A stretch of DNA of 64,000 nt from Erysipelothrix amsterdamensis (GTDB taxonomy: Bacteria > Bacillota_I > Bacilli_A > Erysipelotrichales > Erysipelotrichaceae). Positions 39,800 through 55,907 of the stretch are shown here, piece after piece. Position 1 is the first letter of the stretch, and each line of letters begins with the position of its first letter. Location of the stretch: positions 1,612,001 through 1,676,000 of the forward strand of contig NZ_OW659496.1 in NCBI RefSeq assembly GCF_940143175.1. Reading direction: 5' to 3'. Under the pieces are notes generated by a model. The model had not been told where the DNA came from. It ran no database searches and saw nothing but the letters and a program-made list of their open reading frames with translations. A program made the position numbers and the translations under genes.

Positions 39800-42700
39800 C
39801 TATTTACGGCGCTTTTTAGAACCTTTTAATACAAACAGACTGCCAAGTCCTATTACGAGATAAGGCGTCTTCAACGCGGCTATACCCGTGTTTGGTAAGG
39901 TTGGAGTTGGCTTATCAGATTCTTTTGGGGTTTCCCTTGGATTATCTTTTGGTGTTTCTTTTGGTGTTTCTTTTGGATCTTCTTCATATGGTTTATTCGG
40001 CTTATCTTCTGGAGGTATAACGCCGGTACGAACTGCTACTTTTAGCGGTTCAATGGCTGGATGACCATTAATTGCGACCGCAAATGAATTCCACGCTGTT
40101 AAGTTTGGTTGATTCATTAGTTCTTGTTTAACCACATCCGGATAGGTCATTTCAGATTGGAATGCGAACTCAAAATCTTGAAGTTCCGAAAGTTCTTTTT
40201 GATCTTTCAATTCAATTTTGAAACTTTTAATCGTCTGCCATTCCATCACATCCGAAGCCGTGATCCAATTTGGATCAGTAGTATCTTTATCCTCTATTGT
40301 GTCAAAGCCTTCAGTTGTGAGGACGCGATTCAGATCTCCACGACTTGGATTGTTAGACGTACTATAAAATACATCAAACAGTGTTTCATCAACCCCTATC
40401 GGACCAGTTAGACTTACATCAAATTCACTATTACGTTGTGTGAAGTCTGTAATGCCACGATCACCAATATTAGGTAGAATATCCATCAATACAAATTCTT
40501 GTATCGCTTTTCCCGTACGATTTGAGAGTTGTAATTTATAATCAATCTTATCGTCTAACTCGATAAATGCTTGCATATCATAGAGTGCATCGTTTTCATT
40601 CTTTACCCATTTCTTAATTTTAAGTTGATAGTCTGAAATCATCTGATAATGATTTTGACTTTGAAGCATTTTTTTAGATTCAAAAGTACTTTGTGTTGTA
40701 TATCCATCATAATCAATTAAAAGGGTATCTTGGATTGTTGGATTTGAAACGGAAAGTGTTTCAAATGTATCATTAGCTTCAAGTAAGGTAAATATTTTAA
40801 GATTAAGGTCTTGATATGTCCCCGAGATATCCACATCAAAAACTTGGCTTGTGGATTCATAAGGTGCAAGTTGTGCTAGGTCCCACACGATATGATAGAC
40901 ATCATGATTTCCACGACGCTGATCAAGTCGTTCGATCGATTTAATATTACCTTGTGGGCTAAGATCTTTAAATTGAACACTTCTGGGTACATAAATAATC
41001 GAATGCACATTATCTTTAACTGCACCAACTGAAGAGGGTTCATTCACAATTTCAACTTTTAGTTTATTTGAACCTTTGTATATTTGACCTTTATATTGAT
41101 CAATAAGTTCAATGGAATTGGTTACAGTTGGATGGTATGCTTCTTGATTTTTAGTTACATTGGCCCAACGTGGTGCAGCAAGAAAGTGAAATCCTTCAAA
41201 CCAGGCATTTACACGACCATCTGGGAAAGTAATGGTATAATCATTTTCTGCATTTTCCTTAAAATCATAGAGTTCACGAACGACATCATTACTGATTCCA
41301 TAACGAAACGCTGTATCAATATCCATCTCATTTTTAAGCTCTGTAATGTTGTCTTTCGAATCCTGCCGCCATGTGTCCTTAATCGTAAAGGTATAGGTAG
41401 GCATGCGTGAAAGTCCATTATGTTCTTGAGGTAAAGGTTCATCAATCATCATTCCAGGAACTGTTGTTTGGAAATCATATTGTACTTTAGAGATTTGAGT
41501 TGTTTCGGATAAATTCTTTTGTTTTAATATTTCTTCACGTGAAATGATTTGATCATGTTCTAAATCTTTAAATGTTGCGATAATTTGATTGTTATCATCA
41601 TAAACATGAGCATGGAGAATGGGTTGTTCATGAAGAGGTGTTGCATCCCCATAATCTGTAGTTGGACGATAATCAAAGCGTCCTGGGGCTTTAAACGACT
41701 CAAGACGTAAATGCTTATTAATGTAGTAGTTCCACTTATATTCCACATAACGATCGTCTGCACCATGTTCTAATGCAGTCATTTGATGTGCATAGGTTAA
41801 TGTTGCCCAAGGATAGACGGTTGGACGTTTATTTAGTGCTTCAAAATCAGTAGAATGGTTGCCGAACGGATCAATAGGACTAAAATGTCCTGGAACGTAC
41901 CAGTTACCGTCAACTTCTGGTGTTTCACTCTCAGAAGGATAGAGCGTCGTTCCCGCATAACCTTGATCTTCTAGCACAACACCATCTACATTAATAAATT
42001 TAAGACGTGATGTAACTCCAACTCCAGAAACAGGGTCATCTAAAGATCCTGGTTTTGCTTGATAGTTCACTTTAAATTCTTGATGGAATAGGGTCGAATC
42101 AAATTGATCTTGTTGATCGTAACTTGGAGCATCAAAATACCATGTAAGTGTACGGGCATCGTAGTCAACGAAATCAGGATTCGGGCCCGAAATCATACCC
42201 TTATAATCCAAGGATTCGTGATACGTTTCAGAAATCGAAATCTGTGTTCCTTCTTTAATATATAGTTGGCCTTGAGATTGACGATCAATTTGCGCTTTAG
42301 TAACCCAGACACTTTCCATTCCAGGACTTAAGCCGAGGGATCCTTGATGTTTAGAATTTTTTAAACCATCATACGCCTTTGATATTTTTAATGGGCTGCT
42401 AGCTTGGACTTTCGTATTTAAGTTAAGCGTTGGGTTCGATCGCTGATCTGTAGATACTTTGATATCAAAATAAAGATTTTCCGTTGTTTTCGTAATACCA
42501 TTAGGTACTGTGAAAACGAGAGGAAGCTCTAGATACGTTCCAGATTCAAATACATCACGTGTAATTAGAAGCCCCTGTTTATCACGTGTAACGTTATATG
42601 GTTCACCCAATATATTTTTTATTGAGGTTATGTCTATTTGTACAAATTGAGGCATCAATACTTCTACCTTTAAGTTGGTAAACGTTGTATGGGCGCCGGT

Positions 42701-42868
42701 TGCTTTGAGTTTTAATTCAATACTATTCTTTGCCCCAGTATTGAATGAATCATAAGTCATCTGTGCATAACTTTCTAAATTAAATGCTTCATAACTTGCA
42801 TTTAACGGAATTATAGATAGAATAAATAAAAAACTAGACAATGCAATCATCAATTTCTTTTTCATCAT
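39800..42868 (-). CDS. LPNTG wall-anchored surface protein
   Basis: A 1,022-residue secreted protein: signal peptide (MMKKKLMIALSSFLFILSIIPLNAS), a long adhesin region, a proline/charge-rich wall-spanning linker built of KETPKETPKDNPRETPKE-type repeats, LPNTGIAAL, a hydrophobic span and the tail KGSKKRRK. Residues about 800-960 share a domain with the IS-interrupted adhesin: LPNIGDRGIT matches LPNLGDSTIT, FYSTSNNPSRGDL matches SYSTSENPERFDA, and AWNSFAVAING matches AYNSIAYRG. Two adjacent ATGs (42868, 42865) follow AAAGGAG; the choice is open. A Mga-like regulator is encoded directly upstream and a palindromic site lies between them. The ligand is unknown. Confidence 0.87.
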   Translation of the reverse strand: MMKKKLMIALSSFLFILSIIPLNASYEAFNLESYAQMTYDSFNTGAKNSIELKLKATGAHTTFTNLKVEVLMPQFVQIDITSIKNILGEPYNVTRDKQGLLITRDVFESGTYLELPLVFTVPNGITKTTENLYFDIKVSTDQRSNPTLNLNTKVQASSPLKISKAYDGLKNSKHQGSLGLSPGMESVWVTKAQIDRQSQGQLYIKEGTQISISETYHESLDYKGMISGPNPDFVDYDARTLTWYFDAPSYDQQDQFDSTLFHQEFKVNYQAKPGSLDDPVSGVGVTSRLKFINVDGVVLEDQGYAGTTLYPSESETPEVDGNWYVPGHFSPIDPFGNHSTDFEALNKRPTVYPWATLTYAHQMTALEHGADDRYVEYKWNYYINKHLRLESFKAPGRFDYRPTTDYGDATPLHEQPILHAHVYDDNNQIIATFKDLEHDQIISREEILKQKNLSETTQISKVQYDFQTTVPGMMIDEPLPQEHNGLSRMPTYTFTIKDTWRQDSKDNITELKNEMDIDTAFRYGISNDVVRELYDFKENAENDYTITFPDGRVNAWFEGFHFLAAPRWANVTKNQEAYHPTVTNSIELIDQYKGQIYKGSNKLKVEIVNEPSSVGAVKDNVHSIIYVPRSVQFKDLSPQGNIKSIERLDQRRGNHDVYHIVWDLAQLAPYESTSQVFDVDISGTYQDLNLKIFTLLEANDTFETLSVSNPTIQDTLLIDYDGYTTQSTFESKKMLQSQNHYQMISDYQLKIKKWVKNENDALYDMQAFIELDDKIDYKLQLSNRTGKAIQEFVLMDILPNIGDRGITDFTQRNSEFDVSLTGPIGVDETLFDVFYSTSNNPSRGDLNRVLTTEGFDTIEDKDTTDPNWITASDVMEWQTIKSFKIELKDQKELSELQDFEFAFQSEMTYPDVVKQELMNQPNLTAWNSFAVAINGHPAIEPLKVAVRTGVIPPEDKPNKPYEEDPKETPKETPKDNPRETPKESDKPTPTLPNTGIAALKTPYLVIGLGSLFVLKGSKKRRK

Positions 42869-42887
42869 AACACTCCTTTGTTGTATC

Positions 42888-42893
42888 ATTATA
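42888..42893 (-). promoter_or_regulatory. Candidate -10 box of the LPNTG surface protein
   Basis: A perfect TATAAT on the minus strand, 20 bp before the start codon. No match to TTGACA is found at the right distance, so the promoter may depend on an activator. Confidence 0.45.
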
Positions 42894-42960
42894 ACGGAAC
42901 AGTGGACGTGTCTGACATTCACGATTTACAGTGGTTTTGTAGATCTTGGGTGTCGGCAAT

Positions 42961-42976
42961 TGTGATGCAAATCACA
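42961..42976. promoter_or_regulatory. CRP/ArcR-type palindrome TGTGATGCAAATCACA
   Basis: A perfect 16-bp palindrome fitting TGTGA-N6-TCACA, the site recognised by CRP and by Gram-positive Crp/Fnr regulators such as ArcR. It begins one base after the Mga-like gene's stop codon and is centred about 100 bp upstream of the LPNTG protein start. No T tract follows it, so it is unlikely to be a terminator. Confidence 0.6.
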
Positions 42977-44371
42977 TTAAAAAAACAATTTTTCAAGAAT
43001 CCCTAAGTATTGTTTTTGTGTCGGGTAATCATCAATGAGGATTGCATCAGTCACAGTAGGAATATTGCCAATACATAGGTCATAGTCCAGCGAACTTAAC
43101 TCAAAATAACTCATACAGTCAATTATTATTTGCTTCGGGTCCAGTTTAAATCGCGTCATAATCTCATTACGAATGTAAACGGCATGTTGATATCCCAAAT
43201 CTGAATAGATTAAAACATGTTGAGTTCGTGCTTCATAACTTAATATTTCCGGACAATTCATAATTGTCCAATACAAAAAATCATCGATATATAATTGAGG
43301 GTCAAGAGGCATTAGGTCGTTTGTTATCATGAGTGATTGATACACATCGGCACGTAATTGGGGATGATCCGTATTAAATGCATTCATAAAATCCGATATC
43401 CGATCAATAAATAAAGATGTTTTAAAAGGATAGAGGGTATAATTATTTAATAGCGTTCGATGAATTAAGCTCATGAATGCTTGCGTATCCGAGCTTAATT
43501 CATAATCATATGTATGCATTAATTTCGAAATAAAAGCATCCGTGAACCGTTTGGTAGCTAAAGTGTCCAAGATTTGTGTGTGATAATACATGACTTCATT
43601 CAAACTTTGCTTACTACGTGTAATATCATAATTTCGATAACCCCGAAAAACACCTGAGAAGTCCATCGTATTAGCTTGATACTCTGGAATCATCGATAGA
43701 TTGCTATGAAAACCTTGCTGTTCTCTTAGGTCCGATATAGCAAATAAAATAACACTGAAGACAAGAGTCAAGCTATCATGATAAATCCCTTTTTGATCGA
43801 AAGCCTTGCGAATTAATGCCTTCGCAACTTCCGTGTTAATTTGTAAGATATCGTCTAAATTTTCTGTACCGTAAAGTTCTAAAACCAAACACGTTACAAA
43901 TTTACGTACATAATGTTCTTGATCTGAAACGATACTTACAGGCCTACTTCCATTACGTTGAAACTGTATGGCACTTGACGCAAATTCTTGATTCATGATT
44001 CGTAAAGTACGATAGAACGTCGATTCACTGATGTAGAACTGAGTCATGCGTTCTTCATTAGGAGTCATCGGATTCTTTACAATATCAATAAAAAGAGAAA
44101 TCGCCAGCGATCGCATTAAAAAAACACGCAATATCCGTTCATTCATCTTTTGATTGTATTCTCTAACAAAATAACGACCATTATCTTTTTCTATCGTGAG
44201 CAAAGGTTCCCATTCTTGTGCAATTTGGTCAAGATACGTGTAAATCGTTTTTTCAGAACATCTACAGTGTTTGGATAAGTCCACAACTGAAGCGTGTGGC
44301 TGAATATCACTGTTGAGGTAAGTAATGAGTTGATAATGATTGCGGTCTATAGTATTCAAAAGTTTTAACAT
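42977..44371 (-). CDS. Mga-like virulence-type transcriptional regulator
   Basis: A 464-residue regulator of the Mga/AtxA type. The N-terminus has two helix-turn-helix segments (about 25-50, ASVVDLSKHCRCSEKTIYTYLDQIA; about 110-135, MTQFYISESTFYRTLRIMNQEF). The middle resembles PTS-regulated domains, and the C-terminal about 85 residues (HVLIYSDLGYQHAVYIRNEI) look like the EIIB-like end of Mga proteins. In streptococci Mga activates adjacent surface-protein genes and responds to sugar supply through the PTS. Here the next gene, 108 bp downstream, encodes an LPNTG protein, a likely target by context. ATG follows GGAGAAG; an extended -10 promoter lies just upstream. Confidence 0.83.
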   Translation of the reverse strand: MLKLLNTIDRNHYQLITYLNSDIQPHASVVDLSKHCRCSEKTIYTYLDQIAQEWEPLLTIEKDNGRYFVREYNQKMNERILRVFLMRSLAISLFIDIVKNPMTPNEERMTQFYISESTFYRTLRIMNQEFASSAIQFQRNGSRPVSIVSDQEHYVRKFVTCLVLELYGTENLDDILQINTEVAKALIRKAFDQKGIYHDSLTLVFSVILFAISDLREQQGFHSNLSMIPEYQANTMDFSGVFRGYRNYDITRSKQSLNEVMYYHTQILDTLATKRFTDAFISKLMHTYDYELSSDTQAFMSLIHRTLLNNYTLYPFKTSLFIDRISDFMNAFNTDHPQLRADVYQSLMITNDLMPLDPQLYIDDFLYWTIMNCPEILSYEARTQHVLIYSDLGYQHAVYIRNEIMTRFKLDPKQIIIDCMSYFELSSLDYDLCIGNIPTVTDAILIDDYPTQKQYLGILEKLFF

Positions 44372-44452: not shown

Positions 44453-44472
44453 AAACAACCCTAGGGTTGTTT
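44453..44472 (-). terminator. Terminator of the exporter operon
   Basis: A perfect palindrome with arms AAACAACCCT / AGGGTTGTTT followed by eight T on the minus strand. Confidence 0.85.
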
Positions 44473-55494: not shown

Positions 55495-55907
55495 AATGTC
55501 TCCTCTTTTCTCGGTTTAATAAAAGGTGATTTATGTCAAATTCACCTTAAAATTGTGTCACTAAAAAGTACAGATAGAATCTCCACTTTCTCGTATCCTA
55601 CCATTATCAACAGACACTTATGTGATTAATATTTCACAAAGGGATTTAAAATCACACAAACAAGCGTCTTATAGCCACTGTCTAGTCATTAAATTGATTT
55701 TCGTTAGCATCGAGGTGAAACATTCGTGATAAACACTGAAAATACCTTTTTACCATCACTAATATGATGATAATTCAATCGTTTTTTGTATTTGTTCATT
55801 CAATAATGGGTGACAAAATGCTCTAAGTACTTCTATAGATTATATTTAGAACAATTGCTATGATTATATTAAAGAAATTCTCTTGGTCTAGGAGGTGATT
55901 GCCAGGT
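55495..55907. other. Intergenic region between divergent surface-protein genes
   Basis: About 410 bp of AT-rich DNA between the giant adhesin and the small 59-residue gene. It holds a leader hairpin candidate (55523-55548) and a TGTGA-N8-TCACA repeat (55621-55638). No gene and no clear -35/-10 pair are seen on either strand. Confidence 0.45.
55523..55548 (-). repeat. Inverted repeat in the giant adhesin leader
   Basis: Arms AAGGTGA / TCACCTT around a 12-base centre, about 30 bp upstream of the start codon. It could fold in the mRNA leader and sequester part of an AAGGTGA pseudo ribosome site. Confidence 0.4.

Follow-up and report, generated by a model that had tools for sequence, protein, structure and literature searches.

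The gap between a Mga-like regulator gene and an LPXTG surface protein gene in Erysipelothrix amsterdamensis, both encoded on the minus strand, contains a palindrome, TGTGATGCAAATCACA (42961-42976, not assigned to a strand), that matches TGTGA-N6-TCACA perfectly and that appears, from sequence comparison, to be a conserved regulatory element of an ordinary kind. The explanation that we favour, at roughly even confidence, is that of an operator under purifying selection, most likely a modest site for the redox sensor Rex. The original prediction had read the palindrome as a CRP/ArcR-type site that channels metabolic or redox signals into adhesin expression. A regulatory site with a redox input remains plausible, but the class of regulator that was named is not supported and Rex had not been considered; the protein that binds the palindrome is probably Rex or a different regulator, not one of the CRP/ArcR class. 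The analysis covered a stretch of 64,000 nucleotides (the window) and was extended to 13 Erysipelothrix species, designated G000 (the window genome, 1.91 Mb) and onwards.

The regulator gene (42977-44371, minus strand) encodes a protein of 464 amino acids that resembles the AcpB/EbpR/MafR subfamily. Its Pfam Mga domain scores above the cut-off (6.6e-6), and the NCBIfam model AcpB_EbpR_MafR matches residues 9-454 with an E-value of 8.9e-37 and 127.5 bits (cut-off 130). The neighboring gene for an LPNTG-anchored surface protein of about 1021 amino acids (39800-42868, minus strand) starts with the ATG at 42868 or 42865, and the C-terminus of its product shows a weak match to the EF2685/EF0750 sortase-dependent surface proteins. 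It is preceded by a ribosome-binding site, AAAGGAG, read from the sequence (42873-42879, minus strand) and by the -10 element TATAAT (42888-42893, minus strand), which is invariant in four species and has no good -35 element 16-18 nt upstream. Relative to a transcription start placed 7 nt past the -10 element, at ~42881, the palindrome spans -80 to -95 with its centre at ~-87. The main observations behind the original prediction were thereby confirmed, namely an exact TGTGA-N6-TCACA between the Mga-like and LPNTG genes, at about -85 to -90 of a promoter that has a TATAAT but no good -35. A promoter search around the site revealed no promoter closer to it.

On its other side the palindrome directly adjoins the stop codon of the regulator gene (42979-42977, minus strand), and the same palindrome taken as an 18-mer, TTGTGATGCAAATCACAT, occupies 42960-42977. 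The regulator gene itself is probably a separate transcription unit, since a terminator-like hairpin followed by a T-run lies upstream of it (44453-44472, minus strand; also visible in G011 and G005). A shared operator 5' of the regulator gene was considered and rejected, as the only conserved dyad found there is this terminator-like hairpin.

By base match alone, the palindrome is no more than what chance provides. The window genome contains a single perfect copy of TGTGA-N6-TCACA as compared to one for the reversed control pattern, and 48 copies with one mismatch as compared to 73. Summed over the 13 species, the CRP motif yielded 21 perfect copies against 29 for the control, and the other perfect copies that were examined lay mostly inside long open frames. 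The search for the site elsewhere that was proposed originally has thus been carried out, with one perfect copy in 1.9 Mb and no enrichment as the outcome. Given this lack of enrichment there is no sign of a CRP regulon, and the single copy led us to reject the possibility of a repeat element.

The case for function comes from conservation. The Mga-like gene is present in four of the 13 species (54-100% identity), and in three of these (the window species, G011 and G005) 15 of the 16 palindrome bases are unchanged in the alignment, the sole change being TTGC to TTTC within the spacer; the flanking ATT is kept as well. Only 19 of the 80 fourfold-degenerate sites (24%) in the adjacent Mga-like gene are invariant among the same three species (binomial P ~5e-9), and for this reason the palindrome is very probably functional. 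With the remainder of the intergenic gap as the reference, the P value is only 0.025; this reference itself includes a second block of strong conservation (70% invariant). G004 is the most divergent among the four species with the Mga-like gene. It lacks the palindrome, its regulator gene has a longer 3' end, and the encoded regulator shows 54% identity.

Rex is a sensor of NADH/NAD+, TGTGA-N6-TCACA is the core of Rex operators, and adhE and gap are classical Rex targets. The protein (PF06971) was found in all 13 genomes. That of the window genome can be aligned to Rex proteins of known structure, the recognition helix TIRRDFS included, and this helix is identical in the two other carriers of the palindrome. 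The few intergenic CRP-like sites with one mismatch in the window genome include two that are located upstream of adhE and gap, and across most of the 13 species Rex-type sites are found again at nearly constant positions, two upstream of adhE and one upstream of gap (e.g. TTGTTAATTATTTCACAA and TTGTTAGTTGGCTCACAA). The two adhE sites are separated by 119 bp in the window genome and its nearest relatives with both sites, four species in all. Rex is the genus-wide candidate for recognition of this half-site.

A genus Rex matrix was built from 21 distinct adhE and gap sites. The palindrome scored 13.8 bits (14.0 for the versions of G011 and G005) and was the top match in the 64-kb window, at the weak end of the range of the training sites (12.4-22.1 bits, not left-one-out); it likewise conforms, at the weak end, to a TTGTGAA-N4-TTCACAA-like dyad with a fixed spacer length. 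By chance alone, about 27 sites of equal quality would be expected per 1.9 Mb, and the CRP consensus also reaches 13.8 bits, so that the matrix cannot separate a Rex site from a CRP site. Considering that the relaxed Rex pattern was not enriched genome-wide (48 versus 69 for the control), it is only the conserved sites at adhE and gap that point to Rex. The sequence TGTGATATGATTTACA upstream of rex, of which the first part (TTGTGATAT) is conserved, was left out of the training set because it overlaps a likely extended -10 element and scores just 8.8 bits. A limited literature search retrieved no paper on the Rex regulon in Erysipelothrix.

Some further Rex-type sites were encountered on the way. 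The perfect site TTGTTAGTTGATTCACAA (G000:C1:855527-855544) is situated 5' of a gene for a PTS EIIC-like membrane protein, and the same 18-mer is found in G004 (C1:1286406), which marks a possible new Rex target. The distal Rex-type adhE site is missing in G004, and adhE of this species (G004:C1:94701) has an open frame of 252 amino acids versus about 885 in near relatives, making it a possible pseudogene.

Binding of Rex at the palindrome is something that we infer, and a mode of action is suggested by the location of the site, which adjoins the stop codon of the regulator gene and lies at -80 to -95, a long way 5' of the adhesin promoter. In its NAD+-bound form, Rex would either be a roadblock to transcription that continues from the regulator gene towards the adhesin gene, or exert repression from its upstream position; at higher NADH, as under low oxygen, it would dissociate. 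Activation of the adhesin promoter would be the task of the Mga-like protein, bound at a conserved block at about -28 to -61 (see below), with the palindrome serving as an additional operator. Other observations also count against Rex. With its centre at ~-87, the site neither overlaps nor lies close to the regulated promoter, which is uncommon among repressor sites, and G004 possesses Rex and the homologous gene pair, yet no palindrome. The fuller proposal, in which Rex couples NADH/NAD+ to a MafR/EbpR-like regulator-adhesin pair via a stop-codon operator that acts as a redox-controlled roadblock and so couples or uncouples transcription of the two genes, in a conserved and Erysipelothrix-specific arrangement, we regard as unlikely. 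If true, it would tie surface-protein expression in a zoonotic genus to redox via the sensor that runs the fermentation genes, from an operator placed where repressors seldom bind.

The palindrome could also belong to a different dimeric regulator, for which the AcpB/EbpR/MafR-like protein encoded next to it is the most likely candidate, and be either its operator or part of an extended binding region. The palindrome occurs only beside the Mga-like gene, with no further perfect copy in G000 and G005, and the regulator has been kept in the same three species as the palindrome. Moreover, members of the Mga family bind upstream of promoters, as reported for MgaSpn (-99 to -60) and PclR (-169 to -68) (PMC10773906). 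However, G004 keeps the 54% identical regulator together with the core of the promoter-near block, without the palindrome, and proteins of the Mga/AtxA family reportedly read DNA shape and not precise palindromes (PMC6467988). We consider this possibility doubtful.

A better candidate for recognition by the Mga-like protein is the second conserved block, CTACAAAACCACTGTAAATCGTGAATGTCAGACAC (42908-42942, minus strand; about -28 to -61), which reads CTACAA...TGTAAATCGTGAATGTCAGACAC from 42942 to 42908 and equals the palindrome in conservation. Its core, TACA..TGTAAATC..GAATGT, is common to four species, including G004, which lacks the palindrome. The element TGTAAATC fits seven of the eight positions of the motif TG(T/A)AA(A/T)(A/T)A that is shared by MafR sites, and MafR binds its target promoters at -70 to -34 in one case (PMC10773906). 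This block, rather than the palindrome, is the likelier candidate for the Mga-like activator site, which a promoter that lacks a -35 element requires. The earlier impression of an activator-dependent promoter is therefore upheld, with the activator site more likely to be found by the -35 region than at the palindrome. Within this block, G005 and G004 have TACAAT-N3-ATTGTA as a perfect dyad, whereas the dyad of G000 and G011 is degraded (TACAAA-ACC-ACTGTA). Elsewhere in the window, a copy of the block with two mismatches, TGTTTATCACGAATGT (55720-55735, minus strand), is present ~230 bp upstream of a large LPXTG gene (start 55494), and a TGTGA-N8-TCACA dyad, TTTGTGAAATATTAATCACAT, is located between the two.

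The location directly past the stop codon also permits a reading at the RNA level, in which a hairpin would protect the 3' end of the regulator mRNA or bring about its processing. The inner T-A pair is complementary as well, which results in a 6-bp stem with a 4-nt loop, and folding energies range from -5.4 to -7.0 kcal/mol among the three species. The corresponding z-scores are nevertheless weak (-1.0, -2.4 and -1.4) and, as the stem is invariant, covariation lends it no support; an RNA function of this kind is thus improbable. An intrinsic terminator at this position was rejected on the basis that no T-run follows the hairpin. Still less credit can be given to a chance palindrome without function, for although perfect matches are as numerous in the genome as those of the control pattern, the retention of 15 of the 16 bases against 24% of the neutral-like sites (P ~5e-9) makes it very improbable.

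With respect to the CRP/ArcR reading, a domain search recovered a cNMP-binding-domain protein in 11 of the 13 species, and no such (Crp/Fnr) protein in G005 or G004. The best HTH_Crp_2 match in G005 was an open reading frame that we take to be replication-initiator-like. Since G005 carries the palindrome, the latter persists without any Crp/Fnr protein. The genome check that had been suggested for a Crp/Fnr-family regulator accordingly gave a divided answer: the window genome has one, of 225 amino acids (G000:C1:1444204) and FNR-type, and the carrier G005 none. The recognition helix of the 225-residue protein, PETLSR, aligns to the ETISR of FNR structures, and of the 12 Crp/Fnr proteins that were retrieved for the genus, nine have an E-T-[L/M]-S-R helix and the remaining three have KESFSR (one) or another helix (two). 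A helix of the FNR type reads TTGAT rather than TGTGA. The gene shares a cluster with genes for a P-type ATPase for heavy metals and for a small protein of the metal-binding type, with split open frames for a tyrosine recombinase nearby. Two perfect FNR boxes (TTGAT-N4-ATCAA), TTGATATCTATCAA and TTGATAGGTATCAA, and not TGTGA-N6-TCACA, are positioned just upstream of the genes of this cluster; the whole 64-kb window contains no perfect box of this kind. The cluster (G000:C1:1440000-1448000) has the look of an acquired region. Neither a CRP-type recognition helix nor CRP-type operators could be assigned to the protein.

The exact match to TGTGA-N6-TCACA, the one Crp/Fnr-family protein in the genome and the binding of a similar motif by ArcR of Staphylococcus aureus (PMC2883068) notwithstanding, an operator of the CRP/ArcR type (Crp/Fnr family) is largely refuted and in our view highly improbable, given the absence of such a protein from the carrier G005 and from G004, the FNR-type ETLSR helix of the window protein with FNR boxes in its own cluster, and the lack of enrichment of the CRP motif over the 13 genomes. 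When a perfect CRP-type palindrome is met in a Firmicute, the regulators of the genome should be checked before it is read as a CRP/ArcR site.

The preferred reading, a Rex operator, finds its closest parallel in S. aureus. There, the sequence TGTGAn6TCACA, which resembles the ArcR motif, is bound by Rex at many genes and by ArcR in vitro, and Rex also binds upstream of the leukocidin-family gene lukM; Rex fails to bind some sites of this type that have zero to two mismatches, and weaker Rex sites often deviate at positions 1 and 7 (PMC2883068). The palindrome has the same core and spacing as the Rex operators of Firmicutes (ROP, TTGTGAA-N4-TTCACAA; adhE, ldh1 and lukM in S. aureus; PMC2883068). 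As in S. aureus, Rex is encoded in the genome, and a virulence-type target (lukM) is on record for that species. The 18-mer deviates from the Rex consensus in having T/A instead of A/T at positions 7/12 and a T at position 18, a further point against Rex. Unlike the established operators, this predicted one adjoins a regulator gene at its 3' end and is centred at ~-87 relative to the promoter downstream. CRP/ArcR sites are matched exactly, but a suitable Crp/Fnr protein is lacking, being absent in one carrier and FNR-type in the window genome. Finally, the gene pair resembles ebpR-ebpABC and other regulator-adhesin pairs of the Mga/AtxA family (EbpR, MafR, Mga), with a regulator of similar type beside a sortase-anchored gene and a surface-protein promoter without a good -35. 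It differs from these in the extra conserved palindrome between the genes, in a regulator that scores just under the NCBIfam cut-off, and in that activation is a prediction here.
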